Shown here piece by piece: positions 4,641-31,248 of a stretch of 64,000 nt of DNA; position 1 is the first letter of the stretch; each line of letters begins with the position of its first letter. The stretch covers positions 1 through 64,000 of the forward strand of contig CAJXNH010000011.1 in the NCBI GenBank assembly GCA_913057245.1, given 5' to 3'. This stretch comes from an uncultured Phaeodactylibacter sp. GTDB lineage: Bacteria > Bacteroidota > Bacteroidia > Chitinophagales > Saprospiraceae. The notes beneath the pieces were generated by a model. That model was given only the letters and a program-made list of their open reading frames with translations, was not told the origin of the DNA and did no database searches. The position numbers and the translations under genes were made by a program.

Positions 4641-7856
<3,216 letters not shown>

Positions 7857-7857
7857 C

Positions 7858-12722: not shown

Positions 12723-12727
12723 TTTGG

Positions 12728-14277: not shown

Positions 14278-15821
14278 TGGTCTTGGTTTTGAATGCGTTC
14301 GAGCCCAGCAGCCATGGCTACTACTTTGTCGGGATAGGTTTCGGCAAGGTTGTTCTGCTCGCCAGGGTCCTCCGCCAGATTATACAACTGATGCTCCCTG
14401 GAGATGCCGCCTTCAATGTCCTTGATGCCCTTAATCCATGGGAATTCTTTTTGGGTGGGGGCGATGTATTTCCACTGTCCCTGCCTCAAGCCAAGGGTGA
14501 AGGCTTCTTCCAGCATGACCGACCGCCCCTCATCTGATTGTCCTGAAAGCGTGGACCAAAGGGCTTTACTATCTTTTGCATCGGCTTCCTGCAGTTCATG
14601 CCCCAGCAGCTCCGCAATGGAGGCATAAAGGTCTACCTGATTCCAAAGGGCATCACTGCGCCCGGGCGTGATTTTACCTGGCCAGCGGAGGATGGTTGGT
14701 ACCCGGTTGCCGCCTTCGTAGATGCTGTACTTACCGCCCCGGAATGGGCCGGCGGGCTGATGATCGCCCAGCTTTTCCACGGCCTGGTCGGTGTAGCCGT
14801 CATCCAGTACAGGACCATTATCACTGCTGAAAAAGACCAGCGTGTTTTCGGCTATGCCAAGGGAGTCCAGCGCTTTCATTAGCTGACCTGTGACCCAATC
14901 CATTTGCAGGATGGCATCACCCCTGGGGCCCATCTTACTTTTGCCTTCAAACCGGGGGTGTACAATGCGGGGCACATGGATGTCGTGAAAGGCATAGTAC
15001 AAAAAGAAGGGCTGGGCTTTTTCCTGAGCCATGAACTGTATCGCTTTTTCCGGAAAAGAATAAGGAAAGTCCTCATCCCGGAAGTGCGCCGCTTCTCCGC
15101 CCTCCATAAAACCAATGCGGCTCACGCCATTAATAATGGTCCCACTATGCTGTGTATCGGCCGGCATTTTCAATAATTCAGGGTGGCTAAGCCCGGTGGG
15201 CGTATCGTAAGGGCTGCCTCCTGACGGATCATCTGTAAAACTGACTCGCAGCGGGTCGGCGGGGTCAAGGTTGACAACTTCATGCTGTTCTACATAAACG
15301 CTCGGTACACGATCCCCGGTAGACGGCAGCAGGAAGCAATAATCAAAGCCAATCTCCAGCGGTCCCGGCTTGATCTCCTCGTTCCAGTCCAGGTTCCCAT
15401 TGCCCAGCCCCAGGTGCCATTTGCCAACCACACCTGTACGGTAGCCTTCTTCTTTCAGCATGACAGGCAGGGTAGGTGTCCCCGGCCGGATCATCAATGG
15501 AGCATCGCCCGGCAGGATCCCGGCTTTTCGCCGAAAGGCATAGTTGCCCGTAAGCAAAGCATAGCGGGAAGGGGAGCAGGTCGCTGCCGCACAGTGGGCA
15601 TCGGTAAACAACCGTCCTTCCGAGGCCAAACGGTCGATATTCGGGGTTTGAATGTCGGTAGCGCCGTAGCAGCTCAGGTCACCATAGCCCAGGTCATCGA
15701 CATAAATGAAAAGGATATTGGGTTGGGCGTTGGCGGTTGGCTCTTCATGCGCTGCACCAGAACTGCAACTTAGGCATAAGGATAGCAGGAAAAGACTGCA
15801 CAGCAAAGTTGGCTTGAACAT
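14274..15821 (-). CDS. S1-family sulfatase lipoprotein
   Basis: I chose the internal ATG at 15821 because it opens a lipoprotein signal (MFKPTLLCSLFLLSLCLSC) and gives 515 residues. Upstream codons in the frame look non-coding. Metal-binding YVDDLGYGDLSCYG is followed by the formylglycine site CSPSR in AAATCSPSRYALLTGN. GKWHLGLGN, YYAFHDIHVPRI and SSDNGP are further sulfatase signatures. The Cys must be oxidised by a formylglycine-generating enzyme encoded elsewhere. It is the first gene of the operon and overlaps the GH28 gene by 4 bp. It is the only sulfatase of this operon that appears intact. It should desulfate an oligosaccharide in the periplasm or at the membrane; substrate unknown. 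Confidence 0.9.
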   Translation of the reverse strand: MFKPTLLCSLFLLSLCLSCSSGAAHEEPTANAQPNILFIYVDDLGYGDLSCYGATDIQTPNIDRLASEGRLFTDAHCAAATCSPSRYALLTGNYAFRRKAGILPGDAPLMIRPGTPTLPVMLKEEGYRTGVVGKWHLGLGNGNLDWNEEIKPGPLEIGFDYCFLLPSTGDRVPSVYVEQHEVVNLDPADPLRVSFTDDPSGGSPYDTPTGLSHPELLKMPADTQHSGTIINGVSRIGFMEGGEAAHFRDEDFPYSFPEKAIQFMAQEKAQPFFLYYAFHDIHVPRIVHPRFEGKSKMGPRGDAILQMDWVTGQLMKALDSLGIAENTLVFFSSDNGPVLDDGYTDQAVEKLGDHQPAGPFRGGKYSIYEGGNRVPTILRWPGKITPGRSDALWNQVDLYASIAELLGHELQEADAKDSKALWSTLSGQSDEGRSVMLEEAFTLGLRQGQWKYIAPTQKEFPWIKGIKDIEGGISREHQLYNLAEDPGEQNNLAETYPDKVVAMAAGLERIQNQDQ

Positions 15822-15922
15822 CAGTGAATGCTTTGAGAACAGGAATCGTCCGGGATTGGGGTGTAACCCATCTGCTCTTCTTATCGGCGCAGAATAAGGT
15901 GAAAAATATTTGTAAAAAGTTA

Positions 15923-15937
15923 GTGTAAAGGTTACAC
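15923..15937. promoter_or_regulatory. Candidate operator, inverted repeat GTGTAA-AGG-TTACAC
   Basis: A perfect 6-3-6 inverted repeat lies in the divergent region between the sulfatase operon (start 15821) and the oxidoreductase gene (start 16101). Spacing and symmetry suit a dimeric regulator. No regulator gene is nearby, so this is only a candidate. Confidence 0.3.
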
Positions 15938-16100
15938 CTAGCAAACCTTGATAACCTCCTGTTGGATAGTGAGTTGCTGCCCGGTTTCCTTATCTGGCTG
16001 TACAATAATTCATAAATTGAGCCATCAAATCCTGCCTATAAAGTTGGGAATTGCACAGATTTCCTTATTTTAATTTCCAAAATCAAAACAATCAGATTCA

Positions 16101-17579
16101 ATGAAAAAACCAGGAAAAAAAGGATCAAAGGGACTGGATCGCCGGACTTTTATCCGTCAGGCTGGTGTTGCTGCAGCTGGTATGACTATCGTGCCCAGCA
16201 CCGTAGTTTCCGGACTGGGGCATGTGATGCCCAGTGACAAATTAAACATTGCAGGCGTTGGTGTAGGCGGTATGGGCCGTTCTAACCTGCGCAACATGAA
16301 TTCTCAAAATATTGTAGCGCTTTGTGATGTAGACTGGAAGTATGCTGCCAAATGCTTTAACGATTATCCAGATGCTGCGGTGTACAAAGACTACCGCCGC
16401 ATGATGGACGATATGGGCGATGAAATCGACGCCGTAGTGGTAGGTACGCCTGACCATACGCACTACGTAGTAACCGCCGATGCTATGCGTGCCGGCAAGC
16501 ACGTCTACGTACAGAAACCACTGACCCACTCGGTCTACGAATCCCGTATGCTGGCTAAGCTGGCAAAAGAAACCGGCGTAGCCACACAGATGGGTAATCA
16601 GGGCAACTCCGGAGAAGGTATCCGTCAGGTTTGCGAGTGGATTTGGAATGGTGAAATCGGTGAGGTGAAGGAAGTCCACGCCTGGACCAACCGCCCGATC
16701 TGGCCACAGGGGCTGGAGCGCCCTACAGAAACACCATCCGTACCGCCTACCCTGGATTGGGATCTCTTTATCGGCCCGGCTAAATGGCGTCCTTACCACC
16801 CGGCTTATACGCCGTGGAACTGGCGTGCATGGTGGGACTTCGGTACAGGTGCATTGGGTGATATGGGATGCCACATCATTGACCCGGTCTTCAAGGCGCT
16901 GAACCTTGGGCAGCCTACTGCTTTTGAAGGCAGCTCTTCTCAGGTCAATACCGAGAGCGCACCGATTGCTGAAAAGGTAACCTACTACTTCCCAGAGCGC
17001 AAGAAGATGGGCAAGGTCAATATGCCTGCCGTTGAGTTCACCTGGTACGATGGCGGCTTGCTGCCTGATCGCCCTGAGGGAATCCCTGAGGGTAAAATCC
17101 TTGGTGACGGTGGTGGTGGCGCTATGTTTGTAGGCTCCAAGGGGACATTGATTTGCAGCACCTACGCGCGTAATCCATACATCGTTGGCCGGGAGAATGA
17201 CCCACCAAAGGCAACCAATGAACTACGTCGCGTGGAAACTAGCCACGAAATGGACTGGGTGCGTGCCTGCAAGGAGGATAAAGGCAGCCGTACGGAAGCT
17301 TCTTCTCACTTTGGCTACTCCGCTCCATTGAACGAGGTAGTAGTAATGGGTAACCTGGCTATCCGACTTCAGGATCTGAAGCGTAAGCTGGAATGGGATG
17401 GTGCAAACATGAAGATTACCAACATCGCTGATGATGAGGAAATCCGGGTGGTTTCCTCTGATAAGTTTACGGTAGTGGACGGTGACCCGCGTTTCGATAC
17501 ACAGTATGCAACCATCAACGCGAAGAAGGCGATGGAAGAGTACATCAAGCGTCCGTACCGCAAGGGGTGGAACTATTAA
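16101..17579 (+). CDS. Tat-exported Gfo/Idh/MocA-family oxidoreductase
   Basis: The protein has 492 residues. A twin-arginine leader (DRRTFIRQAGVAAAGMT) precedes a Rossmann domain with NIAGVGVGGMGRSNL, VVVGTPDHTHY and the family's (E/Q)KP motif in YVQKPLTHSVYESR. A C-terminal GFO/IDH/MocA domain follows (GTGALGDMGCHIIDPVF). Such exported members oxidise or rearrange sugars with a tightly held NAD(P). The next gene, 25 bp downstream, is a DUF1080 protein. This pairing is known from routes in which a glycoside is oxidised at C3 to a 3-keto sugar and then cleaved. The role here is inferred from that pairing. Confidence 0.9.
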   Translation: MKKPGKKGSKGLDRRTFIRQAGVAAAGMTIVPSTVVSGLGHVMPSDKLNIAGVGVGGMGRSNLRNMNSQNIVALCDVDWKYAAKCFNDYPDAAVYKDYRRMMDDMGDEIDAVVVGTPDHTHYVVTADAMRAGKHVYVQKPLTHSVYESRMLAKLAKETGVATQMGNQGNSGEGIRQVCEWIWNGEIGEVKEVHAWTNRPIWPQGLERPTETPSVPPTLDWDLFIGPAKWRPYHPAYTPWNWRAWWDFGTGALGDMGCHIIDPVFKALNLGQPTAFEGSSSQVNTESAPIAEKVTYYFPERKKMGKVNMPAVEFTWYDGGLLPDRPEGIPEGKILGDGGGGAMFVGSKGTLICSTYARNPYIVGRENDPPKATNELRRVETSHEMDWVRACKEDKGSRTEASSHFGYSAPLNEVVVMGNLAIRLQDLKRKLEWDGANMKITNIADDEEIRVVSSDKFTVVDGDPRFDTQYATINAKKAMEEYIKRPYRKGWNY

Positions 17580-17604
17580 GCATCAAAAAAACAAAACTGT
17601 GATT

Positions 17605-18423
17605 ATGAAATTCAAAATTCTTTTGTTTGCTGCTCTGGCATTTGCTCTGGCTTCCTGTCAGGGTGGTGCCTCAGAAGCTACCGAAGGAGAAACCACAGAA
17701 GCGGAAGCTACTGAGGATACTCCGGAGGAAGCCGCAACGGCAGAGATAAATACGCTCACCAAGGAGGAAAAAGCGGATGGCTGGATGCTCCTGTTTGATG
17801 GTGAAAGTACCGATCAGTGGAAAGGCTACTGCAAGGACGGTTTCCCGGAAAGGGGCTGGAAGGTAGTGGATGGTGCCATCATGTGCGAAGCTTCCGGCAA
17901 GGGTGAAGCTGGTGGCGGTGGCGATATCATCACTAAGGAGACCTTCGGTAACTTCGAGCTGAAACTGGAATGGAAAATTTCCGAAGGCGGCAACAGCGGT
18001 ATCTTCTACCTGGCCCGCGAGAAGTGCGGTGAGGAAGAAGGACAGCCCATCTGGAAGTCCGCTCCGGAGATGCAAATCCTGGATAATGAGAAGCATCCTG
18101 ATGCCCGCCTTGGAAAGGGTGGCAACCGGCAGGCAGGCTCTCTTTACGATTTGATCCCGGCTAAGCCGCAAAATGCGGTACCGGCTAATAGTGGTTGGAA
18201 CGAGGTGACTATACTGTCTTATGATGGTACGATTGTACACACTCAAAATGGTGAGAATGTGGTAGAGTACCACCTCTGGACGGACGACTGGAAAGAGATG
18301 GTTGCTAACAGTAAGTTTAAGGACTACCAGGACTTCATTGACGTCGCGAAGGAAGGCCACATTGGCCTTCAGGACCACGGCAATGATGTTTGGTTCCGGA
18401 ATATTAAGATCAAGAAGCTGTAA
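17605..18423 (+). CDS. DUF1080 lipoprotein (3-keto-disaccharide hydrolase family)
   Basis: The start at 17605 gives a 272-residue lipoprotein with lipobox ALASC (Cys18). A Glu/Thr-rich spacer of about 35 residues leads into the concanavalin-like DUF1080 domain: GWMLLFDGESTDQWKGY, EGGNSGIFYLAREK, PEMQILDNEKHPDA and GHIGLQDHGNDVWFRNI. Members of this family cleave 3-keto-glycosides or act as related hydrolases or lyases at the cell envelope. It shares a transcript with the oxidoreductase before it and is followed by a strong terminator. Confidence 0.9.
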   Translation: MKFKILLFAALAFALASCQGGASEATEGETTEAEATEDTPEEAATAEINTLTKEEKADGWMLLFDGESTDQWKGYCKDGFPERGWKVVDGAIMCEASGKGEAGGGGDIITKETFGNFELKLEWKISEGGNSGIFYLAREKCGEEEGQPIWKSAPEMQILDNEKHPDARLGKGGNRQAGSLYDLIPAKPQNAVPANSGWNEVTILSYDGTIVHTQNGENVVEYHLWTDDWKEMVANSKFKDYQDFIDVAKEGHIGLQDHGNDVWFRNIKIKKL

Positions 18424-18450
18424 ATCAGGCAGTGCTCTTGATTAAGTTTA

Positions 18451-18487
18451 AACCGGCTGTGGGCATTGGGCTTGCAGCCGGTTTTTT
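18451..18487 (+). terminator. Rho-independent terminator after the DUF1080 gene
   Basis: Stem AACCGGCTG pairs perfectly with CAGCCGGTT across a 15-nt loop and is followed directly by a T-run. Confidence 0.85.
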
Positions 18488-18764
18488 GTATGGACGTACT
18501 TGATTGTCGTTTTTGATGCTACGATATGTTTACTGCGCCATCACCATTAACAAGTAGTAGAATTGAACCAGAGCCTAAATCGAGGTTGTCAATAGATACT
18601 TGATCAGCCGGACGCTCAATTTTTTGAGCTATACTGACGTCGATAAGATTTGGGAATCCAAACCGGCATCGAGTTCAGTATATGCTGACCGTTTTGGGTT
18701 GGGCAGAGCCCATACCAAAACGCGTCATGTATAATCAAAATACGGGTGATGAACCTACAGTAAG
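18488..18764. other. Non-coding gap with an imperfect hairpin at 18690-18722
   Basis: No gene is seen. The hairpin (CGTTTTGG...GGGC-AGA-GCCC...CCAAAACG) lies 43 bp before the lipoprotein start at 18765. It lacks a T-run, so it may be a regulatory leader structure or a relic. Confidence 0.3.
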
Positions 18765-19265
18765 ATGAAAAGAATAGCCATTATTGCAATCGTACTTCTG
18801 GCAGGGTGTACCCGTAACGACCAGGATTCTAAATACTTAAGATGGGTTGGCGACGCTGAGCCCGACCCTGAAATAGATGCCAGCGATTTCCAGTTGTGTG
18901 GCAGTGAGAAAATGGTTCAGCAGTACCTCCATTTCGGACAGGGGCTTCAGTATGGAGGGGAGAAGACAGCGCTGCGCAAACGATTTGAAGAAGCGTACCG
19001 GCCAGTAGAAACCGCTCAAAGTGGTTGGATAAGAATCCGCTTTATTGTCAACTGCCAGGGACAGGCTGGAAGATTTAGAATGATAGGCTCCGATTTAGAT
19101 TACGGGGAACAAATTTTTGATGAACGGATCACCGACCAGTTATTAAAGATTGCCCAATCATTGGATGGTTGGGCCGTGCTCTCAAAAGGTGGTAATCCCC
19201 GGGATTATTACCAATACCTAATCTTTAAGATCAATAACGGAGACCTAACTGATATTTTGCCATGA
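18765..19265 (+). CDS. Small lipoprotein, TonB C-terminal-like fold suspected
   Basis: The protein has 166 residues and a lipoprotein signal MKRIAIIAIVLLAGC (Cys15). The segment GWIRIRFIVNCQGQAGRFRMIG resembles the beta strands of Bacteroidota 'energy transducer TonB'-like domains, but the similarity is weak and I would not rely on it. The stop codon overlaps the start of the next gene by 4 bp (ATGA), so the two are translated together. Confidence 0.6.
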   Translation: MKRIAIIAIVLLAGCTRNDQDSKYLRWVGDAEPDPEIDASDFQLCGSEKMVQQYLHFGQGLQYGGEKTALRKRFEEAYRPVETAQSGWIRIRFIVNCQGQAGRFRMIGSDLDYGEQIFDERITDQLLKIAQSLDGWAVLSKGGNPRDYYQYLIFKINNGDLTDILP

Positions 19266-20083
19266 GAATTCTTCTGATTTTTGTCTTAGTCGTCGTGTCC
19301 GCTAGTTTGGTCGGTCAGCCCAACTGCAACGCCTATAAGTATAGCGGAGACAAGTTGAAGTATAAGGCTTGTAAAGCTGTGGTAAAAGTGAAAGGGCACT
19401 ATCAGTTCAGCAGAGCGTTCCAGGAAGCACTCGATGAGGCGCTTGCGATCGATTCTACCTTCGCATACGCTTATCGGATTAAATCTACTGCATACCTGAA
19501 GAGTGGTGATTTTATCACCTGGAAAAAGCTAATGGACAAAGCCGTGAAATACGATCCGGAGGGTGAGCTATTCTATCGGGCTTCGTGCCGCTATCAGTTT
19601 TTTAGAGATTATGCGGGAGCTATAGAAGATATTGAACTTTTAGATAGCCTGATTGACTATAATATCGGTTATTCCCAAAATGGGGATTACCACCTCAATA
19701 TTATCAAAGCTTTGTCCTACAAGGCTATTGGGAAACCGGATGAGTCCTTACAGATATTTGAACGACAACTAAGTGATAGCACTCATAGCGTTGGTATTTA
19801 CGATTATTTGCATTTGGGTGTTCTTTACCTGGAAATGGAAAAATTTTCATTGGCTTTGCGTGCTTTAAAGCAGCAGGCATTAGAAAATGATATCGCGGAA
19901 AACAGGTACTATATGGCTATGGCCTGTAAGGCACTGGGGGATAAAAAGGACTACCTGGAAAACATAAAACTTGCCAAGGAGAAGTACGAAAACGGAGTGA
20001 AAATGTTTGACCCCTACGTTGAAAAAATGGATCAAATATTTTTAGCTGACATCATGGATGCGATGAAAATTGAGGGCTTTTGA
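19262..20083 (+). CDS. Secreted tetratricopeptide-repeat protein
   Basis: The protein has 273 residues with signal peptide MRILLIFVLVVVSASLVGQ. Helical pairs recur with TPR-like spacing: FQEALDEALAIDSTFAYAYR, KKLMDKAVKYDPEGELFYR, IKALSYKAIGKPDESLQIF and LGVLYLEMEKFSLALRALK. It probably scaffolds a periplasmic interaction with the lipoprotein it overlaps. No specific function is recognised. Confidence 0.7.
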   Translation: MRILLIFVLVVVSASLVGQPNCNAYKYSGDKLKYKACKAVVKVKGHYQFSRAFQEALDEALAIDSTFAYAYRIKSTAYLKSGDFITWKKLMDKAVKYDPEGELFYRASCRYQFFRDYAGAIEDIELLDSLIDYNIGYSQNGDYHLNIIKALSYKAIGKPDESLQIFERQLSDSTHSVGIYDYLHLGVLYLEMEKFSLALRALKQQALENDIAENRYYMAMACKALGDKKDYLENIKLAKEKYENGVKMFDPYVEKMDQIFLADIMDAMKIEGF

Positions 20084-20139
20084 AAAGGTCAAAAGCCTTC
20101 AAGTTGGCTGGGGTTTTTGATTAAATCGTGCTATTCCAT

Positions 20140-21504
20140 CTAATTCCCCTTTGCAGTAAATGCTTTGATCACCTGTCGCCCGACCTGATCGCCTACTTCC
20201 AGCCCCACCTCATTGTCGGTACGGAAATGCACCCCTCCCTCAAAGCGGGATTCCGAACACTCAATTGCCAGTGCTTTGAACAAAGCCTCGTCTCCGGGGA
20301 ACAGGAACGAGAGGACTCTGGCTATGGACCCGGCAACGGTAGTATGCCCGGCAGGATAGCCCGGGAAGTTAGGCGTGTCAATCAGAATAGGTTTAAAGGA
20401 AGGGTCGTACTGAAACGGGCGGATGCCCCAGTAGTGGTATTTCCCATCCCATGCCGCAATGATGGCATCGAATCGGGCGGTGTGGAAAACGGCATTCGCA
20501 AAGGCAGCTTCTAATGGGTTAAGGTCGTATTCCAAAATCTTGCGTTCGACCAATAGGTCCCATACCGGTTCGCTTTTCCACTTCCAGGCTATGGTGCTGC
20601 TTTGATGGGCATCGTTGAATTGCCGGAGCTCTTCCATATCTGCAGTCCAGTCGGTGGGCGGTGGGCCGGGCCGGAACTGATCGGCTTGCTTCAGGGTGAG
20701 CGGCTTCCATTGCCTTTTCATCGGGTCCCATGGGCTGGGGTTGCCTGACCACAGGCTATCCGCCTGAGGCACTTGCCCTTCCCACCGGCGGTCTGTGCGG
20801 TCGGTTTTCGCATATTCGATATACTGTTGGGCTATCTTCCGGCCAATTTCCAATCCTTTTTCAATATCTGAGGGGAATACCAGCCCTGTAGCCAGGCGGG
20901 CAGACCTGAAGGCAAGGAGATGACTGTCCAACATCGCCTGCTGCTCCGGAAAGTAATATCCGATAACCTGATGCGCCGCCCCGGCTGCTGCACTCCATTC
21001 ACAAAGAGAGGAGGAATACTCTGGTTCCTCTCCAAGCTTTTTCACCCTTTGATTGTACAGATAGGCTGCTTTCCGGAAATGTGCCTGTTTGTGCTCCCAA
21101 ACTTCCACCGTAGCGTCATAGACCGCAAGATGTAGAATGGCCACCCGGCCTCCATTTTTATGGCCTTTATGGTTCCGGCTCGCCTGCATAAGTAATTGAT
21201 GCCAGCGGTAAGCGGGATAAGCGTTGTTCCAGTACCGTACCGCCCATAAACCTTCCGCTTCCATCTGTTGCTGAGCTGTTGTGATCTCCGGGACTTCACC
21301 CCTTAGAGCTTCCTTAGGGACTGGAAGCACAGGTTCTTCCAGTTCAAACTTGAAGGGCATGAATTCGGAGGCTGCCATTTGCCCGTACCCCGGGGATCGA
21401 GTAATCAGTATGGCGATCAGGCAAAATGTGGGTGCGAATAGTAGGGTAGACCAATGAGCAGATGTGTACATGAATCGTTTTTTTTGAAAAAGGGGATACT
21501 TCAT
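20140..21504 (-). CDS. Vanadium-dependent haloperoxidase / PAP2-fold enzyme
   Basis: With the ATG at 21504 the protein has 454 residues and a signal-anchor or signal peptide (WSTLLFAPTFCLIAILI). An ATG at 21471 (443 residues) is an alternative. The three oxyanion-binding motifs of the PAP2/vanadium-haloperoxidase superfamily are present in order: KYHYWGIRP (K-x6-R-P), YPAGH (PSGH-like, catalytic His), and SRFEGGVHFRTD (SR-x5-H-x3-D). Length and layout fit secreted bacterial haloperoxidase-like proteins rather than short lipid phosphatases. Whether it oxidises halides or hydrolyses phosphate cannot be told from the sequence. It stands alone, converging on the TPR gene. Its 5' side adjoins the GxxExxY element. 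Confidence 0.8.
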   Translation of the reverse strand: MKYPLFQKKRFMYTSAHWSTLLFAPTFCLIAILITRSPGYGQMAASEFMPFKFELEEPVLPVPKEALRGEVPEITTAQQQMEAEGLWAVRYWNNAYPAYRWHQLLMQASRNHKGHKNGGRVAILHLAVYDATVEVWEHKQAHFRKAAYLYNQRVKKLGEEPEYSSSLCEWSAAAGAAHQVIGYYFPEQQAMLDSHLLAFRSARLATGLVFPSDIEKGLEIGRKIAQQYIEYAKTDRTDRRWEGQVPQADSLWSGNPSPWDPMKRQWKPLTLKQADQFRPGPPPTDWTADMEELRQFNDAHQSSTIAWKWKSEPVWDLLVERKILEYDLNPLEAAFANAVFHTARFDAIIAAWDGKYHYWGIRPFQYDPSFKPILIDTPNFPGYPAGHTTVAGSIARVLSFLFPGDEALFKALAIECSESRFEGGVHFRTDNEVGLEVGDQVGRQVIKAFTAKGN

Positions 21505-21583
21505 ATAAACCAACACTGGGTGGAATGGCTTAAAAGTCTTTTGGGAATTTTGATATTTAGGATTGGAAATGGGGGTGTGGGTG

Positions 21584-21610
21584 ACCACGGAATACGCGGA
21601 AAACACGGAA
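21584..21610 (+). repeat. Left inverted repeat of the GxxExxY element
   Basis: The unit begins ACCACGGAATACGCGG and contains the repeated word ACACGGAA. It pairs with 22074-22100 (25/27). A partial second copy, ACCACAGAATACACAGAA, follows at 21619-21636. Confidence 0.75.
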
Positions 21611-21662
21611 ATGGGGGGACCACAGAATACACAGAAATTAGGGAGCTTTAAAAATATAGATT

Positions 21663-22049
21663 ATGGACAATCAGGAAGAATTACTTTATGAGGAAGAAAG
21701 TTACCGGATTCGGGGTGCTGTGTTTGAGGTGTACAGGGAAATGGGGGCTGGGTTTTTGGAAGCGGTTTATCAAGAGTGCCTGGAAAAGGAGTTGCGTAGT
21801 CAGCAAATTCCCTTTATTGCACAGCCTGCCCTTGATCTTTTTTATAAGCAGGAAAAGCTGGATACTATTTACAGGCCAGACTTGATTTGTTACGGCAAGA
21901 TTATCGCAGAGCTGAAAGCGGTAAAAGAAATCGCGGATGAGCATCGGGCCCAGTTGCATAACTATTTGAACGCTACTGGTTTTCGGCTAGGGTTTTTGGT
22001 GAATTTTGGACATTACCCCAAAGCGACAATAGAAAGAATTATAAAATAG
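21663..22049 (+). CDS. GxxExxY-family protein (PD-(D/E)XK nuclease-like fold)
   Basis: The protein has 128 residues and carries the name-giving motif GAGFLEAVYQECL. A nuclease-like core follows: YRPDLICYGKIIAELKAVK (D...E-x-K), then AQLHNYLNATGFRLGFLVNFG. The whole family is about this length. Its function is not established. It is not related to its glycan-degrading neighbours, and it is enclosed by inverted repeats, which suggests an independent unit. Confidence 0.88.
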   Translation: MDNQEELLYEEESYRIRGAVFEVYREMGAGFLEAVYQECLEKELRSQQIPFIAQPALDLFYKQEKLDTIYRPDLICYGKIIAELKAVKEIADEHRAQLHNYLNATGFRLGFLVNFGHYPKATIERIIK

Positions 22050-22073
22050 TGCATAGCCTGAACAGCCAAAGCC

Positions 22074-22100
22074 TTCCGTGTTTTCCGTGTATTCTGTGGT
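22074..22100 (-). repeat. Right inverted repeat of the GxxExxY element
   Basis: It reads TTCCGTGTTTTCCGTG... on the plus strand and is the reverse complement of the left copy with two mismatches. It begins 25 bp after the gene's stop codon. Confidence 0.75.
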
Positions 22101-22115
22101 AGAAAAAGAAGCATC

Positions 22116-24337
22116 CTACTGCATCCCCATCACCTCCACCGCCGCCAGCAGAAAAGCACCCAGCCCAAAGGGCTCCGTATGATCAGGATCAATCTGTTCC
22201 GGGGCGTGGGCCACACGTTGTACGCTGCCGAGGCTGCCATCCGGTCGGATATGCTGTAGAAGGCCTTCCCATGCCCGCTCCATGACCGAACGGTAGGTCG
22301 CCTCATCCAGATAGCCATTGCGGATGCCATTGGCCAGGGCATAGCAGAAGAGGGCGGTGCCGCTCGTCTCCGGCAAGGGGTAGTTTTGGGTATCGGTCAG
22401 GCTGACCCGCCAGAGCCCGTCTTTGCCCTGCAAGGGGGCTATACCGGCTGCCATTTGTTGGAGTAATTCGATGTAGTACGACCGCCTCGGGTCACTTTCC
22501 GGAAGGCGCTCCAAAACCCGGACAATGCCGCCCATTACCCAGCCATTGCCGCGCGACCAGAATACCTTGCCGCCGTCTTTGCCGTGGGTGTCAGGTTTAT
22601 CGGGGGCGTAGACGTATTTAGCATCCCGGAAAAAGAGACCGGTGGCGGGATCTTGAAGTACCTTTGTGGCTTGCACCCATTTTTCGTGCATGAAATCCAG
22701 GTACTTGGGATCACCGGTGATTGCGGTAGCTAAAGCGAAAGTGGGTGGCGCCATGAAGAGTAGATCACACCACCACCATTCGGTACGCCCTTCGTAAGGG
22801 AGGCGCATAAAGCGGTCGAGCTCCGTCAGGCTGGGTTCCAGGTAGGCTTTGTTTCCGGTTTCCTGATACATTTTCAGCCAGGTGTGGGCTGCCAGATGGT
22901 TGTTGGCAATGTCAGGGTCGTACTTTAGCGGGGTGAACCGCTCCCGCTTGCCCCAGTCAGCCATGTGTTTGAAAAAAGGAGCATGTCCCGTTTTTTCATA
23001 AAGTTTCCAAAGCCCGGTATAAAAGGTGGCCGCATTCCAGTAAGCGTTCTTGGTCCAGGCACCTTCCATGACCGGAACGTAATTGAGTTTGGGATAAACC
23101 TCCCGCAGGTGGTAGTCCACCATGTTCCAGCAAATGGCCTGGATATCCTCCGGAGTATAGGGGGGCGGTTGAGTTAGCGAGGGAGGTACCTGCACCTTTC
23201 CCCATTCGGAGGGCGCTGATCCCATGATAAGCTCCAACGTACCGCCCTGCATCAGCTCCCGGTGGCGGAACCACGCCCGGTCGATCGGGATACCATTCAG
23301 TTTAGCGGATTGTACATAAATGTTTTCAGCAGACCGGCGGCGGGCCACCACGCTAAAGGTCTTTCCATTTTTCAGCCGGATACGGCTACGGTCAAAGAGC
23401 GGGCTGCCGATGAGGTAAACATCCTGCCCGGCAACGGGGAAGAAGCCCATGCTGCTGAAGACGTACCAGGAAGAGATTGCACCGGAGTCGTCCTGTCCGG
23501 GAAGGCCGTTATGCCCGGCAGCGTACTTTCTTTTCATTAGATGCTGAACGGCTTCAGCGGTTTTATCCGGCCTACCCGCATAAATGTACTGATAGGGCAA
23601 CAGGAAGAGCAGTTCATTACCGAGGTCAAACCTGGGGTCCAACAGCAAACGATCCAGGTATTTGATATAAACTTCCGGGCTTCCGTGCCGTTGGATAAGC
23701 CCCCGCATATCGTGGGGTACATAGCTGCTGTAGGCAAGGGGGTAGCTTCGTAAAAATAGGGGTCGTTCCAGTGGTCTTTACGCAGATTTTCGGTGGTGAT
23801 GTCCGGCTGCCAGTTGCCCGACTGGTCCTTTGCCCAAAAATGCCCGGCTTCTTTGTTAAATAGCTTGAAAACGCCCTGTGAGCGTTTCCTGTACTTCCGG
23901 GCAGTTGCCGTGTCCCCTGCCGCTTCGGCGACTTTGGCAATGCAAAAGTCATTGTAGGCATACTCCAGAGAGCGGGACGTCGCCCCTTTGGCAGAGGACG
24001 AAGTGACATAGCCCAGTTTTAGGTAATCTTCCAGGTAGCGCCCTTGTTTTTTGGGATTATCAGAGGGATGCTCGGCATGATGCCGCAGGGCTTTTAACGC
24101 CTGTTCCTGGTCAAATCCACCCAGGTCTTTGGCAACGGCATCCGCAAAGACGACATCCACATTTGTCCCGCCCTGTATGCTGCCGAAGTCGCCGGCTACC
24201 CAGGCATCCGGAAGCCAGCCCTCCTTTTCGTAAATAGCCAGAAGGCTTTGCAGGATGGCACGTTGCTGCTCCGGTGCAATCAGCGTATGCAGGGGCATAA
24301 CGGTGCGGAAAACATCCCAAATACAATAATGGTCCCA
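22116..24337 (-). pseudogene. GH92 C-terminal part fused to GH105; separated from its N-part by a stop and frameshifted
   Basis: This is the continuation of the gene that starts at 26785. After the TAA at 24340-24338 the same frame reads WDHYCIWDVFRTVMPLHTL, a conserved GH92 stretch. The frame is lost at a C5 run (plus-strand G5 at 23738-23742) and resumes one base over as AYSSYVPHDMRGLIQ. GH92 then ends normally, with the Ca-site motif GLPGQDDSGAISSWYVFS and SAENIYVQSAKLNG. After a short linker a GH105 domain follows: WTKNAYWNAATFYTGLW, EWWWCDLLFMAPP (catalytic Asp region) and FWSRGNGWVMGG. GH105 enzymes remove delta-4,5-unsaturated uronic acids left by lyases, and GH92 enzymes are exo-alpha-mannosidases. 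The downstream 530-codon ORF has no signal peptide. An intact ancestor would be a three-enzyme protein of about 1550 residues. Confidence 0.8.
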
Positions 24338-26785
24338 TTAATGAGCCTGGCTTTCGGGCCAGTCTTCGGTAGCGCCAGTGACTTCGGTGGGCATGAGGAA
24401 GGTATTGCGAAGGGTAGAATAAAACATCCGCTGATGCTCGGGCAGCCCACCTTCCACCTCAATACGGGAGAGCCGTTTGTCCCAGGACTGATCGGCAGCA
24501 GTTCTTGCTTGGTCAAATGAAGTTTGCTTTTCCTCATTCAGAAATTTCCTGGCAGTTTTTATGCTTTTAAATGAAAGCCCAACCTTTGCTTCCACCTGCT
24601 GCCGCTGCGGGCCTTTGAAGGTCGCCCATGCGCCCATGCGGCGACTTTTGACCGGCTGATCGTCCGGGAAGCGGATTGATAAGTTTTGCTGGCCGGGTAG
24701 GAGGGTGGTGTCTTGCCAAACACCTGCTGCATCAAAGGGGCGGTCGAACTGGGCGAAGAAATATACCTTATACGGGTTTTGCCCGCCCCAGCCACCGGCG
24801 AAATGGCCCCAGCCCTGGATGGCGTTTTCTCCAACAATCTCCACTTCGGCTTCCAGGCAACGGCTGTCTTCCAGCCCCGTCCGGCCAATGGTATGGGCGA
24901 CATCAATAACCACCTGCCCTTCGATTTCCGGTGATTTATCCCAGGTGAAAAAAGTGTATCGATGGTAGCCTACTTTGGCAGAAGCCGTTAATTCCACTTC
25001 CACATCGCCGGGTTTTCGGGCAAGGGTGACAGCGTAGTACCCCGGTGCAGCCCGCTCATTGACCTGTTTTAGCGAAGCGTAATCTTTGAGGTTAAGCTCC
25101 TGCGTCAGTGGGGTGAAGAGGATATTCCCATACCGGCCTCCTCCACCGGTCCCGCTGGTATGAGTGTGGCTGAAGCCCGCGATAGGCTTGCCGGGGCGAT
25201 AGCCGGAGGTGGGCTGTGGGGGCATAATGTCCGGGCTCAGCTTAACCATTCCAAAAGGGATGGAAGCGCCCGGAAGCACATTGCCATTGATACTCCCCAG
25301 GAATGGGTCGACAAGGGCGGTGGACCTGGCAGGTACCGGATGGCCTATATCAGTACGTGGGGTGGACCGGGGGTGGCGGTTGGCTTGTTTTGACGGGGTG
25401 GGGCCTCCAAAGTAGGGGCCTTTTTCGAAAACAGTGCCCTGGCCATTGGCACGCGGGTCATGAGTTGCTGATTGCCATTCGTTGAGGGTGTTGTGCAGCT
25501 CTGCTTTTACCTGACTGTACTCCGGATTGGCGGCCTGATTTGCCATTTGGTAAGGATCTTCTGCAAGCACGTAAAGCTCCTCGGCAGGGCGTTTGCCGAA
25601 AGCCAGTTGCCTCAGGGTGCTGTCCTGCCCCTGAATGATCGCATCTTTCGTTACAGAATCATCGCAATCGCCGTAAGCACCTACCGCATAGATGTGCACA
25701 GGATCGCCCGCCGGATACCGCTCGGGTTCCAGGTTCTTGATGTAGAGGTAGTCTTTTGTCCGAACGGCCCTCATCGGATAGCTTTGGTTATCGGGGCGGA
25801 CGTAAGCCTGGCGTTCTCGTTCCAGAAAGACTTGATCACGGTGCTTTCGGCTCTGTCCTTTGAGCAGGGGGAGCAGGCTTTCGCCTGACATCGCCTCGGG
25901 AATGATTAGCCCGGCAGCTTCCAGAAAAGTTGGTGCCAGGTCGATGAGGTTGACAAAGTTTTCCATTTCACGGGCGGGCATTATCTGCCCTTTCCAGTAG
26001 ATCGCCAAAGGGACCCTTGTCCCGTAGTCGTAAAGATTGGCTTTGGAGCGGGGGAAGGGCATGCCATTATCGCTGGTGATGACAATAATGGTGTTGTCCA
26101 GCAATCCACGTTTTTCAAGTTCCCGGACAGCGGTACCGATCCGCCGGTCGAAGCGTTCCACTTCGTAGAAATAATCGAGGATATCATTGCGCACCTTAGG
26201 CAGATCCGGGAAAAAGGGGGGCAGATGGACAGCAGAGGCATCCATGCCCTGATTCACCCCGCTTCCCGGTTCATACACCCGGTGCGGGTCGTAGCTGCCA
26301 TCCCAAAAATAGAAGGGGCGGTCCGGGTCCCGCAGTTTGAGGAAATCGGTGAAACTATCGTAATTTGGTCCAGCAGGATTATGCGGGTAACCGCCTGCTT
26401 TTTCATTTCCGGGTCCCCATCCCTTATTGGCTTTACCAGTTATATATCCTGCTTTTTCCAGCAAGGCTGCATAATTGGGGAATGTATCAGGCAGCAGGCT
26501 CCAAAGATTACCTCCCGGCCCCAGTTCGTGCGGGTATTTTCCGGTCAGCAGGGCTGCGCGGGAGGGCGTGCAGGATGGGGAAGCGCAGTAGGCATGGTCA
26601 AACACCACCCCTTCCCTGGCCAGCCGGTCGAAGTTGGGGGTTTGCACCACCGGGTCGCCGTAAATGCCCGCGTGGGGGTAAGACCAGTCATCGGCGATAA
26701 GGACCAGAATATTGGGCGTGTTTTGTGCGGGGACTAAAAGAGGCAGGCACGCAGCAAAAATGACCTGAAGGTAACGTAGGAGCAT
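24338..26785 (-). CDS. S1 sulfatase fused to the N-terminal part of a GH92 mannosidase (premature TAA)
   Basis: The ORF has 815 codons with a signal peptide (LQVIFAACLPLLVPAQ). Residues 23 to about 460 are an S1 sulfatase (heparan-sulfamidase-like, S1_8 type): ADDWSYPHAGIYGD, formylglycine site C72-T-P-S-R and ITSDNGMPFPRSK. A roughly 30-residue linker leads to GH92 from about residue 492: VDPFLGSINGNVLPGASIPF, GFSHTHTSGTGGGG. The frame ends at codon 816 (TAA), inside GH92, just before the conserved YCIWDVFRT. A Tyr codon probably became TAA. The sulfatase half could still fold and act, whereas the GH92 catalytic half is cut off. It is the last gene of the 22-31 kb operon. Sulfatase-glycosidase fusions are known in marine algal-polysaccharide loci, but I do not know an S1-GH92-GH105 arrangement. 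Confidence 0.82.
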   Translation of the reverse strand: MLLRYLQVIFAACLPLLVPAQNTPNILVLIADDWSYPHAGIYGDPVVQTPNFDRLAREGVVFDHAYCASPSCTPSRAALLTGKYPHELGPGGNLWSLLPDTFPNYAALLEKAGYITGKANKGWGPGNEKAGGYPHNPAGPNYDSFTDFLKLRDPDRPFYFWDGSYDPHRVYEPGSGVNQGMDASAVHLPPFFPDLPKVRNDILDYFYEVERFDRRIGTAVRELEKRGLLDNTIIVITSDNGMPFPRSKANLYDYGTRVPLAIYWKGQIMPAREMENFVNLIDLAPTFLEAAGLIIPEAMSGESLLPLLKGQSRKHRDQVFLERERQAYVRPDNQSYPMRAVRTKDYLYIKNLEPERYPAGDPVHIYAVGAYGDCDDSVTKDAIIQGQDSTLRQLAFGKRPAEELYVLAEDPYQMANQAANPEYSQVKAELHNTLNEWQSATHDPRANGQGTVFEKGPYFGGPTPSKQANRHPRSTPRTDIGHPVPARSTALVDPFLGSINGNVLPGASIPFGMVKLSPDIMPPQPTSGYRPGKPIAGFSHTHTSGTGGGGRYGNILFTPLTQELNLKDYASLKQVNERAAPGYYAVTLARKPGDVEVELTASAKVGYHRYTFFTWDKSPEIEGQVVIDVAHTIGRTGLEDSRCLEAEVEIVGENAIQGWGHFAGGWGGQNPYKVYFFAQFDRPFDAAGVWQDTTLLPGQQNLSIRFPDDQPVKSRRMGAWATFKGPQRQQVEAKVGLSFKSIKTARKFLNEEKQTSFDQARTAADQSWDKRLSRIEVEGGLPEHQRMFYSTLRNTFLMPTEVTGATEDWPESQAH

Positions 26786-26930
26786 ATCCGAAAGCTTTTT
26801 TTAGGAGATACGCAGCAGGGGGGATTGTAATGAGCCAGGCTTACAGTAAGTCTTTCATGTAAGCCTTCAATCTCAGCCGATACGATTGGCTGACGGGGAG
26901 GTGCTGACCGCCGGGAGTCCGGTTGATGGA

Positions 26931-28293
26931 TCAATCATAATGCCCTTCCTCCATCAGCCCCATTAGCGCCAGCAAACCGCCCCAGGTATACCATGGCGAA
27001 CTATTGAGCTGAGGCTCGTTGCAGGTGCCATCAATAGGGGAGTAGTTTTCGCAAACGAACCCCTGTTCGGTCCAGTTGCGTACGAAAAGGTCTACAGATT
27101 TGTCTACCAATGCTTTCCGGGCATCTTTCAGCTCCGGGTAGTCGCGCATACCGAGATAAACCAGGAAGTTCATGGGGGCCCAAATGGCGCCTTTCCAGTA
27201 CCGCTGCTTTGGAAAAAGCGGATCGTTTTTGGCAATGGACGGCAGCACCCATTCTCCCCAGAATTCTTCTTCATTGAGTAGGTGTTTGTCAACCATCGCC
27301 CGGGCTTGTTGGGCTGAGGCGGTGCGAGCGAGCAAGGGGTAAAAGGACGTGGGGGAAATCCGGTCTGAGAAGGCCTCCTGAATCAGGTCGTAGTTTTGGA
27401 AAAGCTGATTCTCCTCATGCCAAAGTGCCTGAATTTGTTGCTGTAAGCGGTCCGCCCGCTCCCGGAGGCGTTGAGCGTCTTCCGATTGCCCCAGAACATC
27501 CGCCATTTTGGCAAGTACCCGGCAGTCGGCGATGTACATGGCATTCAGGCCTACATCGTGCATTTCCATGAGATTTTTCTCCGGGTCAAACTGTGCATCG
27601 AGGTACATAGGGCTATCGTCAATGCCGGTCTCCAGCATGGCAGCGCGTAGGTTGTGGTAGACTTTATCGTGAAAGGGGTTTTGAGCGGGATCGGAGCCCC
27701 AGGAGAGCAGGTCGCCATTCAGGCGGTTTTCTAACCACCACTCGTTCCAGCGCAACAGCCGTGGATAGACCATTTCCAGGAACCATCGGTGCGGATGTTT
27801 CTGGTAGATGTCCCAGCAGGCCAGCCCACCTACCGGCGGTTGGGAGCGGTCCCAGGCTTTGCGCCCGTTGCCCTGACTGAGGTTGCTGACAAAGCCATCA
27901 GCAGTGGCTTCCCGGAGTGCCTCCACAGCATTGGCCATAGCGAGTTCCGGTGCATCCAACCCGATCATATGTGCCATAAAAAAGTTGTCCCAGCCGAAAA
28001 ATACGTATCCCCCCCGGTTGATGTTCCATTGGCGGTCTACGGTAGAAAATACCCGGTCCTGAACGGGATCATAAATGGTATTCCAACCCAACCCGGCTGC
28101 CATGCCTGCGTAGGCTTCAGTGAGTTTGCCGAATTGCTTGAGGTAGGCTTCGTAATCGTTCCGTTTTTCGGTTACCTTCTTTTGAATCGCAGCCCTGCGT
28201 ACCGGAAATGTCCCACTTGCCCTGTGCGCTCAGTGTACCTGCAAAAAGCAAAATGCTGCCCATCACCAGCAGCTGCTTCCAATCCTTGATCAT
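26931..28293 (-). pseudogene. GH63-related (alpha/alpha)6 glycosidase, N-terminal domain deleted
   Basis: A start at 28293 opens a signal peptide (MIKDWKQLLVMGSILLFAG, cut at LSAQ) followed by GKWDISG. The frame then changes, and a different frame carries AAIQKKVTEKRNDYEAYLKQ into a full catalytic barrel: WNTIYDPVQDRVFSTVDRQW, GGYVFFGWDNFF, GNGRKAWDRSQPPVGG, GEWVLPSIAKNDP and KGAIWAPMN. Relatives (GH63/MGH1-like alpha-glycosidases) carry a beta-sandwich domain of some 250 residues between signal and barrel. It is missing here, with a junction near 28185-28207. The remaining ORF (390 codons from 28103) has no signal peptide. An out-of-frame internal deletion is the simplest reading. Confidence 0.7.
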
Positions 28294-28372
28294 AGCTTGG
28301 TTTTTGGGTAAATGAGGCTTTGCTTTTGGACTTGTAATGCTGGTTTTAATGGACGTGTAGTCAATTTCGATG

Positions 28373-28574
28373 CTAGTCGTCAGTCTTGGGCTGGTGTATG
28401 TAGTAGTCCATATGGAGTATGGATTTGAGTACTCCCGGTACAGCTGAGGTCGCCATAACCGAGGTCGTCGGCGAGAATAATCAAAAAATTAGGGCGCTCA
28501 GGCGTTTGGGAAATTGCTGGACAAACGCAGAGTAGCAGACAGGCGAGCGTAGCCCATTCCTTTAGATTAATCAT
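28373..28574 (-). pseudogene. Remnant of an S1 sulfatase gene with its middle deleted
   Basis: From the ATG at 28574 a signal peptide (ATLACLLLCVCPAISQ) and the sulfatase N-terminus NFLIILADDLGYGDLSC are read up to QIHTP. Sulfatase sequence then stops. In the next frame the DNA reads HMDYYIHQPKTDD followed by TAG, which looks like a normal gene end. About 1.3 kb, including the formylglycine site, would be missing at a junction near 28408-28413. The start overlaps the upstream sulfatase-GH43 stop by 8 bp, so it was part of the operon. Confidence 0.7.
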
Positions 28575-31248
28575 CGGTATTTGATTTAGGTGAGGGTGTT
28601 GCGATAATTTCGATAGTGCCATCAGGATTATAGGTTAGCCGCGTCATGCAAACCGACCGGCGGAAGGGGTGGGGGCTGCCCTCATGCCCCCAGCCAAACT
28701 TACGGAGTGCCTCGGGGTGCTGCTCAAAGTAGAGGTCAGAATTGTGGTAGAACAGGTACCACTCCCCTTGGAATTGCTCGATGCTGTGGTGATTGGTGCC
28801 GCTGTTCATGGGCGGGAGGATGTCACCTTTGTAAGTGTAGGGCCCTAGCACCGCATCCGCTATGCTATAACGGATAATATCTCGCCCCTGCTCATCTTTG
28901 GCGGAATAAGACAGATAGTATTTCCCTTGGTGCTTATGTAGCCAGACCGCTTCAAAAAAGCCCGGTGTTTGCTCCTTGTCCAGTATAATGACCTCGCCAT
29001 CGTAAGACATCATATCATCGTTGAGCCTGATTATATTAACTTCTAATTGCCCCATAAGTAAGTAAGCCTGCCCGTCATCATCAATAAATACAGCTGGGTC
29101 AATAAAATCCCGGTCGGAGACAACACCGGGTGAGTCATGACTAATCAGGGGTCCATTCAGTGGATCCTGGAAGGGGCCATAGGGCGAATCCGCCACCGCC
29201 ACGCCAATGTGCTGCTGCTCTACGGGGTAGTACAAATAGTACTTCCCGTTTCTGGCCATGGCATCTGGTGCCCAGGCATCTCGTTTAGCCCATTTGATAG
29301 CATCCAGTCCAAAGGGTTTGCCATGGTCGGTCCAATGTTTAAGATCAGGAGTGGAGAATACACGCCAGTTTTCCATGGAGAACCGGGTCGCTGTATCTTG
29401 ATCGTGGGAGGTGTACAGGTACAAAGTATCGCCGAAAGCCCGTGCTGCAGGGTCTGCCGTGTAAAGGTGTTGGATGAAGGGGTTACCGTGTGCTTCAAAT
29501 CGGTAGGGAAGCTTGTTGGGTTGCCTTTCCAGTTGGAGTAACCGAAAATCGATTGCCCCGGGACCGGGTAAGTCCTTAGCGGCAAGGACCAGGCGGTGCC
29601 GACCGGGCTTAAGGTCAATTGGCGGTAAGGAAAGTGATGTCCAGTCTTTAACAAAGGAGACATCGCGGGGCGTACGGTCGTAGCGGGCGCCGCGCAGCGG
29701 TGGATCATGGGCCTCGTCAATTGTAAAGTCTATCGCTGTGCCGGTTGCGGACAACTGGAAAGCTGCCCCGGTATTTTCTTCCGCACAGGTGTAGTAGAGG
29801 GTTGCCTGATAAAGACCGGGCTTTAGGACTTCCACGTCCCAGTAGATGCTGTCTTGGGTACTTGTCCAGTTGGTGTAGTAGGAGCAGTTGGGCCAGCGGT
29901 TGGACCGTTCGATGGTGCCAGTGGCAATGGCATCACGGGCGGGCAATTGGGTGAAATCGTGGTCGGGGTGCCCCACCGTAAAAGCTCGCTTTTGGTTCGG
30001 TTTGAGTTCTGATAGCACCTCTTTCCGGAATTTTTCCTGCGCTTTGATCAGCGTTTTATGGATTTCCGGATGTGCGTGGCTGACATCTTTACGCTGTCCG
30101 GGGTCGGCTTTCATATCAAACAACTGTCCGTCATGGCTCAGCCGGAAATGCTGACTGCGCACGCTGATGCGATCGCCCCATTGGTTGATGATCAAACGCT
30201 CGGGCCATTCTGCACCCATCTCCAAAAGCAAAGGTTTCAGGCTTTTGCCATCCAGGGGTTTTGGGGGATCGAAGGGAATGCCTGCAAGGTCGGCTAAGGT
30301 AGGTAACAGGTCGTGTACGCTGGCAATGGGTTGGATGGTCTTTCCGGCAGGGAGCTGCCCTTTCCATTGCATCAGCAGGGGCGAACGCACCCCGCCTTCA
30401 TCGGTTTTGGCTTTCCGCCCTTTCATATCGCCGTTCCAGCGCCAGGAGTTAGGGCCGTTGTCTGTGAGGTATACTATTATGGTATTTTCTTCCAGATGGA
30501 GCTTGCGGAGATGTGCGATGAGGCGCCCCACGTTCCAGTCAATATTCTCCACCATAGCGAGTGCGGCCCGGGTAAAAGTAGTGTCTTCGCGTTCCGGATC
30601 TCGGTGCCGGTTTAGGAGTGGGCGGTCTTTTACCTTTTCCCACCAGTCATCCGGTACCTGCATAGGCGCGCGTGGGGTGGGGAAGGGGAGGTAGACCAGA
30701 AACGGCTTGTCCTGATGTTGTGCAATGAAATCCATAGCCCGGTTCGTCAGATCGTCGGGCAGGTAGCCATCGCCCTGAATGATTTGTCCGTTATATTCCA
30801 GCATAGGGCTGAAGTAGCTGCCCCAGTGCCCGGAGCAGAAGCCGTAGAACTCGTCGAAGCCCCGGCTGTTGGGGTGATAGGGCGGCTGCATGCCGTTGTG
30901 CCATTTGCCGAAAGCACCGGTGGCATAGCCGGCAGCTTTGAAATACGCTGCCAGGGTCTTTTCATCAAGGTCGAGCCGTTCGCCACCGACAGAAGTGGCA
31001 TAAACGCCGCCCCGTACCGCATACCGCCCGGTAAGCATTGCTGCCCGGGTGGGCGAACAGACCGGATCCACAAAAAACCGGTCGAATTGAACTCCATTTG
31101 CTGCCAGGTTGTCAATATGCGGGGTGTGCAGATTTGTGTTGCCATGCAGGCTCAGGTCACCCCAACCCTGATCATCTGCCATAATGATGATGATATTGGG
31201 CAGAGATTGAGCCTCCAACACCGGGATTGCGCAGCATACCCAGGCCAT
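28567..31248 (-). CDS. Sulfatase - carbohydrate-binding-like - GH43 fusion enzyme
   Basis: The 893-residue protein appears intact. Residues 16 to about 415 are an S1 sulfatase (S1_16-like): metal ligands D25-D26, formylglycine site C64-S-P-T-R, FGKWHNGMQ and YLTDNGPNSW. Residues about 425-580 are a beta-sandwich of the kind often appended to arylsulfatases (SIYWDVEVLKPGLYQATLYY, IDLKPGRHRLVLA). Residues 585-885 are a GH43 propeller with catalytic base D599 (YTADPAA), D717 (FIDPAVFIDDDG) and acid E766 (FFEAVWLHK). One protein could thus both desulfate and cleave a side-chain pentosyl or galactosyl residue. The signal peptide from this ATG is short and lacks a basic start. A TGA at 31275-31273 lies two codons after an in-frame upstream ATG (31281) that would give a better leader. 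It is the first gene of the operon. Confidence 0.88.
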   Translation of the reverse strand: MAWVCCAIPVLEAQSLPNIIIIMADDQGWGDLSLHGNTNLHTPHIDNLAANGVQFDRFFVDPVCSPTRAAMLTGRYAVRGGVYATSVGGERLDLDEKTLAAYFKAAGYATGAFGKWHNGMQPPYHPNSRGFDEFYGFCSGHWGSYFSPMLEYNGQIIQGDGYLPDDLTNRAMDFIAQHQDKPFLVYLPFPTPRAPMQVPDDWWEKVKDRPLLNRHRDPEREDTTFTRAALAMVENIDWNVGRLIAHLRKLHLEENTIIVYLTDNGPNSWRWNGDMKGRKAKTDEGGVRSPLLMQWKGQLPAGKTIQPIASVHDLLPTLADLAGIPFDPPKPLDGKSLKPLLLEMGAEWPERLIINQWGDRISVRSQHFRLSHDGQLFDMKADPGQRKDVSHAHPEIHKTLIKAQEKFRKEVLSELKPNQKRAFTVGHPDHDFTQLPARDAIATGTIERSNRWPNCSYYTNWTSTQDSIYWDVEVLKPGLYQATLYYTCAEENTGAAFQLSATGTAIDFTIDEAHDPPLRGARYDRTPRDVSFVKDWTSLSLPPIDLKPGRHRLVLAAKDLPGPGAIDFRLLQLERQPNKLPYRFEAHGNPFIQHLYTADPAARAFGDTLYLYTSHDQDTATRFSMENWRVFSTPDLKHWTDHGKPFGLDAIKWAKRDAWAPDAMARNGKYYLYYPVEQQHIGVAVADSPYGPFQDPLNGPLISHDSPGVVSDRDFIDPAVFIDDDGQAYLLMGQLEVNIIRLNDDMMSYDGEVIILDKEQTPGFFEAVWLHKHQGKYYLSYSAKDEQGRDIIRYSIADAVLGPYTYKGDILPPMNSGTNHHSIEQFQGEWYLFYHNSDLYFEQHPEALRKFGWGHEGSPHPFRRSVCMTRLTYNPDGTIEIIATPSPKSNTDD

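Follow-up and report, generated by a model that had tools for sequence, protein, structure and literature searches.

The closest described systems join an S1 sulfatase to a glycosidase on one polypeptide. In the ulvan pathway of Formosa agariphila, the two modules of P36, S1_25 and GH78, act consecutively at the non-reducing end (PMC8511951). The protein PbSulf1-GH195 of Polaribacter sp. Hel1_33_78 acts on the C6-sulfated alpha-1,3-mannan of diatoms, which it cleaves, working together with a GH92 exo-mannosidase; its counterpart in Ochrovirga is encoded by two genes (PMC13063451). Putative glucuronomannan loci of flavobacteria contain GH92 enzymes together with sulfatases and have been assigned to sulfated, glucuronate-containing diatom alpha-mannan (PMC9723552).

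The locus analyzed here, located in a stretch of 64,000 nucleotides from the genome of a marine Phaeodactylibacter that we call the window, encodes an S1 sulfatase, a GH92 module, and a GH105 module in one gene. It shares with P36 the combination of an S1 sulfatase and an exo-glycosidase on one polypeptide. However, P36 has two catalytic modules instead of three, a GH78 rhamnosidase in the place of GH92, and a sulfatase from another S1 subfamily, and the GH105 of its pathway is a separate gene. PbSulf1-GH195 is also an S1 sulfatase joined to a glycosidase, but it is endo-acting, is predicted to be located in the outer membrane, and carries a T9SS domain; its GH92 partner is separate, and it has no GH105. 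In the flavobacterial loci, the enzymes are encoded by separate genes beside SusC/D pairs, whereas no SusC/D was seen in the window. The GH92-GH47 fusions of Bacteroidota (L113, L114) likewise have a second glycosidase positioned C-terminal to GH92 in one ORF, but the partner is GH47 and neither a sulfatase nor a GH105 is present. Members of the same bacterial family carry the same module families in joined ORFs, as S1-esterase, S1-BNR, and BNR_4-GH105 fusions (L013, L020, L034, L040, L055), which differ in having two modules and no GH92. The literature searched contains no S1-GH92-GH105 protein and no GH92 joined to a sulfatase or to a GH105.

The window belongs to contig C11 of a metagenome-assembled genome (MAG) of 3.5 Mb, which is 62% complete and consists of 63 contigs. 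On the minus strand at 26785–22116, one reading frame, broken by two lesions (Table 1), encodes the S1 sulfatase, then a complete GH92, and finally an unsaturated-uronyl hydrolase of GH105/88, which is also complete. Pfam matches in the three ORFs of this frame confirm the order, coordinates, and strand of the modules given in the initial annotation. The 815-residue ORF 26785–24338 matches Sulfatase PF00884 (E 2e-43) and GH92N (8.7e-60) and ends within the GH92 catalytic domain, of which it covers the first 67 positions. The ORF 24298–23537 corresponds to GH92 profile positions 94–285, and the ORF 23708–22116 to positions 288–463, followed by GH88/105 (3.5e-73). The sulfatase has the PF00884 fold and the C/S-x-P-S-R formylglycine motif of family S1, in the form CTPSR. 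In the intact copy of a sister MAG (L066), the GH105/GH88 module matches PF07470 with an E-value of 2.3e-73 over positions 28–348 of 352. All three modules are complete domains where they flank the two joints. The interruption of GH92 that had been described as a repairable stop and shift is formed by the TAA at 24338–24340 and a single-nucleotide deletion near 23742, both of which were mapped against two relatives. At best, the gene in the window could still yield a secreted sulfatase, with the GH92 truncated and the GH105 lacking a leader of its own.

Table 1. Features of the fusion gene and its neighbors in the window.
Feature	Position	Strand	Evidence
S1 sulfatase module, codons 1–460, with a signal-peptide-like leader at the N-terminus	25406..26785	-	PF00884 and SGSH_C matches
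Sulfatase formylglycine motif C-T-P-S-R, codons 72–76	26558..26572	-	direct sequence reading; kept in L066
S1/GH92 linker, Pro-rich, about 25–30 aa	25331..25405	-	equal length and indel-free in window, KD52, and L066
GH92 module (GH92N and catalytic domain), split by TAA and 1-nt deletion	23199..25330	-	PF17678 and PF07971 in pieces; complete in L066
In-frame TAA inside GH92, fusion codon 816	24338..24340	-	the two relatives have a sense codon here
Frameshift in GH92 by a 1-nt deletion, codon 1015	23742..23743	-	mapped against two relatives
GH92/GH105 joint, about 15–35 aa (about 13 aa between the domain limits used here)	23160..23198	-	indel-free in three copies
GH105/88 unsaturated uronyl hydrolase module and stop codon	22116..23159	-	PF07470
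MGH1-like/GH63-type hydrolase, N-terminal part missing relative to L066	26931..28103	-	intact L066 ORF has 646 codons
S1-GH43 fused ORF, 893 aa, intact	28567..31248	-	second sulfatase-glycosidase fusion of the cluster

When 84,980 species genomes were scanned with the GH92-GH105 part as the query, two close loci emerged: one in Phaeodactylibacter xiamenensis KD52 (L067, 96% identity) and one in a MAG placed in the same genus by genome search (L066, 89%). In L066, the fusion is a single uninterrupted ORF (4923–9590) of 1556 amino acids from the likely start, close to the restored length of about 1550 residues that had been predicted from the window. The S1, GH92N (236/236 profile positions), GH92 (464/464), and GH88/105 modules of the L066 protein are all complete, so that intact sulfatase and glycoside hydrolase modules occur in one ORF in L066; the copy in the window is not intact. 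The KD52 gene has the same architecture and carries a different single-nucleotide deletion, which lies in the sulfatase at codon 110 and is independent of the lesions in the window. The fusion is present in three of the six Phaeodactylibacter genomes. Relatives with three separate genes, named in the initial annotation as the finding that would speak against a fusion, do not occur within the genus, where there is only the fusion or its absence.

The three copies (window, KD52, and L066) were aligned by codons to map the lesions and to calculate dN/dS. Over the 4,668 aligned nucleotides, the only indels are the single-nucleotide lesions, one in each broken copy, and there is none at either joint. 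The S1 module of the broken copies is 83–84% identical in amino acid sequence to that of L066, and the S1/GH92 linker (codons 455–485) is 81–97% identical among the copies. The dN/dS values are 0.087 for L066 and the window, 0.075 for L066 and KD52, and 0.128 for the window and KD52. Individual modules have values of 0.05–0.15, the GH92/GH105 joint (codons 1190–1225) of 0.12–0.17, and the S1/GH92 linker of 0.16–0.19 against L066. The overall dS to L066 is 0.77–0.88, which would have given an unconstrained gene the time to gather many frame lesions. The purifying selection on every module and joint, together with the indel-free joints, indicates that the fusion is a maintained gene and that its joints are not deletion scars. 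Of the two origins that the initial annotation had offered for the linkers, the natural one is borne out by this strong selection and by the intact ORF with the same module order in a MAG of the same genus. Judged by sequence comparison, the fusion is a real, natural single gene and the copy in the window is a damaged allele. The best explanation as a whole, with a probability of about 0.7, is that the window contains a damaged allele of a genuine Phaeodactylibacter gene for a secreted trifunctional S1-GH92-GH105 protein of about 1556 amino acids.

The cluster around the fusion also contains GH28, GH43, GH2, and GH16 genes and several sulfatases, and in L066 and KD52 this cluster includes a CE15 glucuronoyl-esterase-like gene. 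No SusC/SusD-like pair was recognized among the window ORFs around the fusion, a partial test since the L066 contig is short, and the locus is therefore termed a CAZyme cluster and not a polysaccharide utilization locus. No polysaccharide lyase, including ulvan lyase, was recognized in the stretch examined. The KD52 match to the S1-GH43 ORF covers only its first 387 residues, which form the S1 part. At 28100–28622 on the minus strand, an N-terminal stub of a sulfatase lies end to end with the MGH1-like hydrolase that lacks its N-terminal part. Further from the fusion, at 8681–10009 on the minus strand, a PhoD N-terminal domain is in frame with a CBM6, with no phosphatase core recognized, and looks like a deletion join. 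At 1656–4352, the ORFs of a beta-helix protein (minus strand) and a GH43 (plus strand) overlap head to head at 2.8–3.3 kb; the profile match of this GH43 begins at position 42, and the site looks like a rearrangement breakpoint.

It is possible, although unlikely, that the TAA and the single-nucleotide deletion arose by error in sequencing or assembly and that the gene is intact in the organism from which the window derives. The source is an incomplete MAG, the broken copies carry unrelated lesions, that of KD52 falling within a short run of A residues in a HiSeq draft, and the dN/dS between the window and KD52 is still low. However, the damage is unevenly distributed. In comparison with KD52, the annotated genes of the collinear non-cluster stretch at 30–60 kb have no clear net damage to their frames, whereas several genes are broken in the cluster at 11–31 kb: the fusion, a GH28 (12.7–14.3 kb), a sulfatase (11.3–12.7 kb), and the rearranged MGH1-like region. 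Uniform sequencing error would not be expected to concentrate in this way, and the confinement of frame damage to the CAZyme cluster suggests decay of the locus. In KD52 (L067, 2056–4778), the ORFs of the CE15 glucuronoyl-esterase-like and MGH1-like proteins overlap in different frames, the former continuing into the latter; the two ORFs are separate and intact in L066. The cluster is thus damaged in KD52 as well, independently of the window. That the locus is decaying in parallel appears to be a better reading than sequencing error. The synonymous divergence between window positions 11391–31000 and KD52 contig C82 is mostly about 0.15–0.4, in comparison with 0.42–2.0 in the flank at 31–57 kb, a difference suggesting that Phaeodactylibacter lineages have exchanged the locus.

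No further S1-GH92-GH105 protein was found in the genome sets of the family (398 genomes), class (395), and phylum (395), which overlap and together include roughly 1,100 Bacteroidota genomes. The queries were the full 1556-residue protein at a strict E-value and the GH92-GH105 part, so that a weakly similar fusion could escape. The closest sulfatases outside the genus (50–59% identity) are encoded by separate genes of mostly about 490–540 codons, and the closest GH92s (36–43%) by separate genes of mostly about 750–780 codons; the closest GH105s are separate or joined to BNR domains. These separate genes are not even adjacent: S1, GH92, and GH105 were not found side by side in the neighborhoods of the best S1 and best GH92 relatives. 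Long GH92 ORFs considered as candidate S1-GH92 or GH92-GH105 fusions proved to be GH92-GH47 or GH92-PA14, or to carry CBM-like domains or an unassigned extension. The partners in long S1 and GH105 ORFs were esterases or BNR domains. Two relatives of the GH92 module (L092 and L093, 38–41% identity) adjoin GH28-like genes, genes for inositol catabolism, and a transporter of the sodium-solute type. The contexts of the nearest GH92s, which include this combination of GH28 and inositol-pathway genes as well as tandem GH92s elsewhere, reveal no consistent substrate. S1-GH92-GH105 is a new three-module set that is lineage-restricted in what was sampled; two-module sulfatase-glycosidases are already known.

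Several motifs of the three families are kept in L066: CTPSR in S1; the acid Glu before VPHD, GQDDSG, and a GNEP-type motif in GH92; and WWWCDALFM in GH105. The roles of the CTPSR, GH92, and GH105 motifs are general knowledge of these families. The motif EGxxWQY of GH92 relatives reads EATPLAY in L066, and its Trp is absent from the Phaeodactylibacter copies (fusion codons about 1013–1022, near 23720–23750 in the window). The loss of the Trp after the acid Glu suggests that the specificity may differ from that of known mannosidases. In a phmmer search with the intact copy, the closest solved structure to GH105 is 4ce7, an unsaturated 3S-rhamnoglycuronyl hydrolase that acts in ulvan degradation. 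The WWWCDALFM region is common to both, and the segment WWWCDALFMAPP of the GH105/GH88 module aligns with 4ce7 in the region of the active-site Asp. The closest solved structures to the S1 module are an S1_8A sulfatase (9bb9) and, almost equal to it, human SGSH.

GH92 and GH105 are exo-acting families. No domain follows GH105, and thus no C-terminal sorting domain is seen; together with the leader and the complete modules, this suggests that the single signal peptide would export the protein by the Sec route, with probable retention in the periplasm. There it may trim imported sulfated, uronic-acid-containing oligosaccharides from the non-reducing end. GH105 would take off the delta-4,5-uronate that lyase cleavage leaves behind, the sulfatase would take off a blocking sulfate, and GH92 would take off the freed alpha-linked mannose. 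The fusion would fix the ratio of the three enzymes and hold them together on one substrate. That a single substrate may need all three activities had already been suggested in the initial annotation.

The most likely class of substrate is sulfated glucuronomannan of the diatom type, an assignment whose odds are well below even. Diatom glucuronomannan consists of alpha-1,3-mannose, glucuronate, and sulfate (PMC9723552), and diatom sulfated alpha-mannan is degraded by GH92 and S1 enzymes (PMC13063451). The assignment is favored by this use of GH92 and S1, from the isolation of KD52 from a Phaeodactylum culture (PMC4263839), and from the CE15 in the cluster. It is weakened by the GH28, GH43, GH2, GH16, and sulfatase neighbors, by the lack of a recognized lyase or SusC/D, and by the ulvan-type relatives of S1 and GH105. 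A natural fusion could instead serve another substrate, such as an ulvan-like polymer or a sulfated rhamno- or galacto-glucuronan with terminal alpha-mannose. This is a tentative alternative, to which the similarity of GH105 to 4ce7, the GH28, GH43, and GH2 neighbors, and the proximity of S1 to S1_8A among solved structures all point; the ulvan pathway of Formosa makes use of S1_8 (PMC8511951). However, GH92 is so far a family of alpha-mannosidases, ulvan as described in the literature covered contains no mannose, and an ulvan lyase was not among the genes recognized in the stretch examined.

The fusion might merely spare a signal peptide and fix dosage, with modules that act independently, possibly on different chains. 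The proline-rich linkers without recognizable structure would fit such an arrangement, as would the joining of the family's sulfatases and GH105s to esterases and BNR domains, which indicates that shuffling is common. This is improbable, since both characterized sulfatase-glycosidase fusions, P36 and PbSulf1-GH195, work consecutively on one substrate, and the linker is constrained at a dN/dS of 0.16–0.19 against L066. The truncation of three neighboring genes and their in-frame joining by deletion, in the genome or in the assembly, is rejected as very improbable: the truncated or joined genes nearby (MGH1-like/sulfatase stub at 28.1–28.6 kb, PhoD_N-CBM6 at 8.7–10 kb) indicate that deletions do occur in the cluster, but the same indel-free joints are present in three species at a dS of about 0.8–0.9, one ORF is fully intact and under purifying selection, complete domains lie on both sides of each joint, and separate adjacent ancestral genes were found in no relative.

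Under the preferred reading of a genuine trifunctional gene, one exported protein may dismantle a sulfated glucuronomannan repeat in the order delta-uronate, sulfate, and mannose, in a diatom-associated genus only and with an altered GH92 active site, while two species may be losing the locus independently; that all parts of this picture hold is doubtful. The turnover of marine carbon hinges on the opening of sulfated diatom polysaccharides by bacteria. A natural three-enzyme gene shows which activities go together on one substrate. It therefore gives a direct clue to a structure that is still unsolved, and supplies a tool enzyme that is already assembled. Because sister species carry broken as well as intact copies, the loss of such a trait can be followed.
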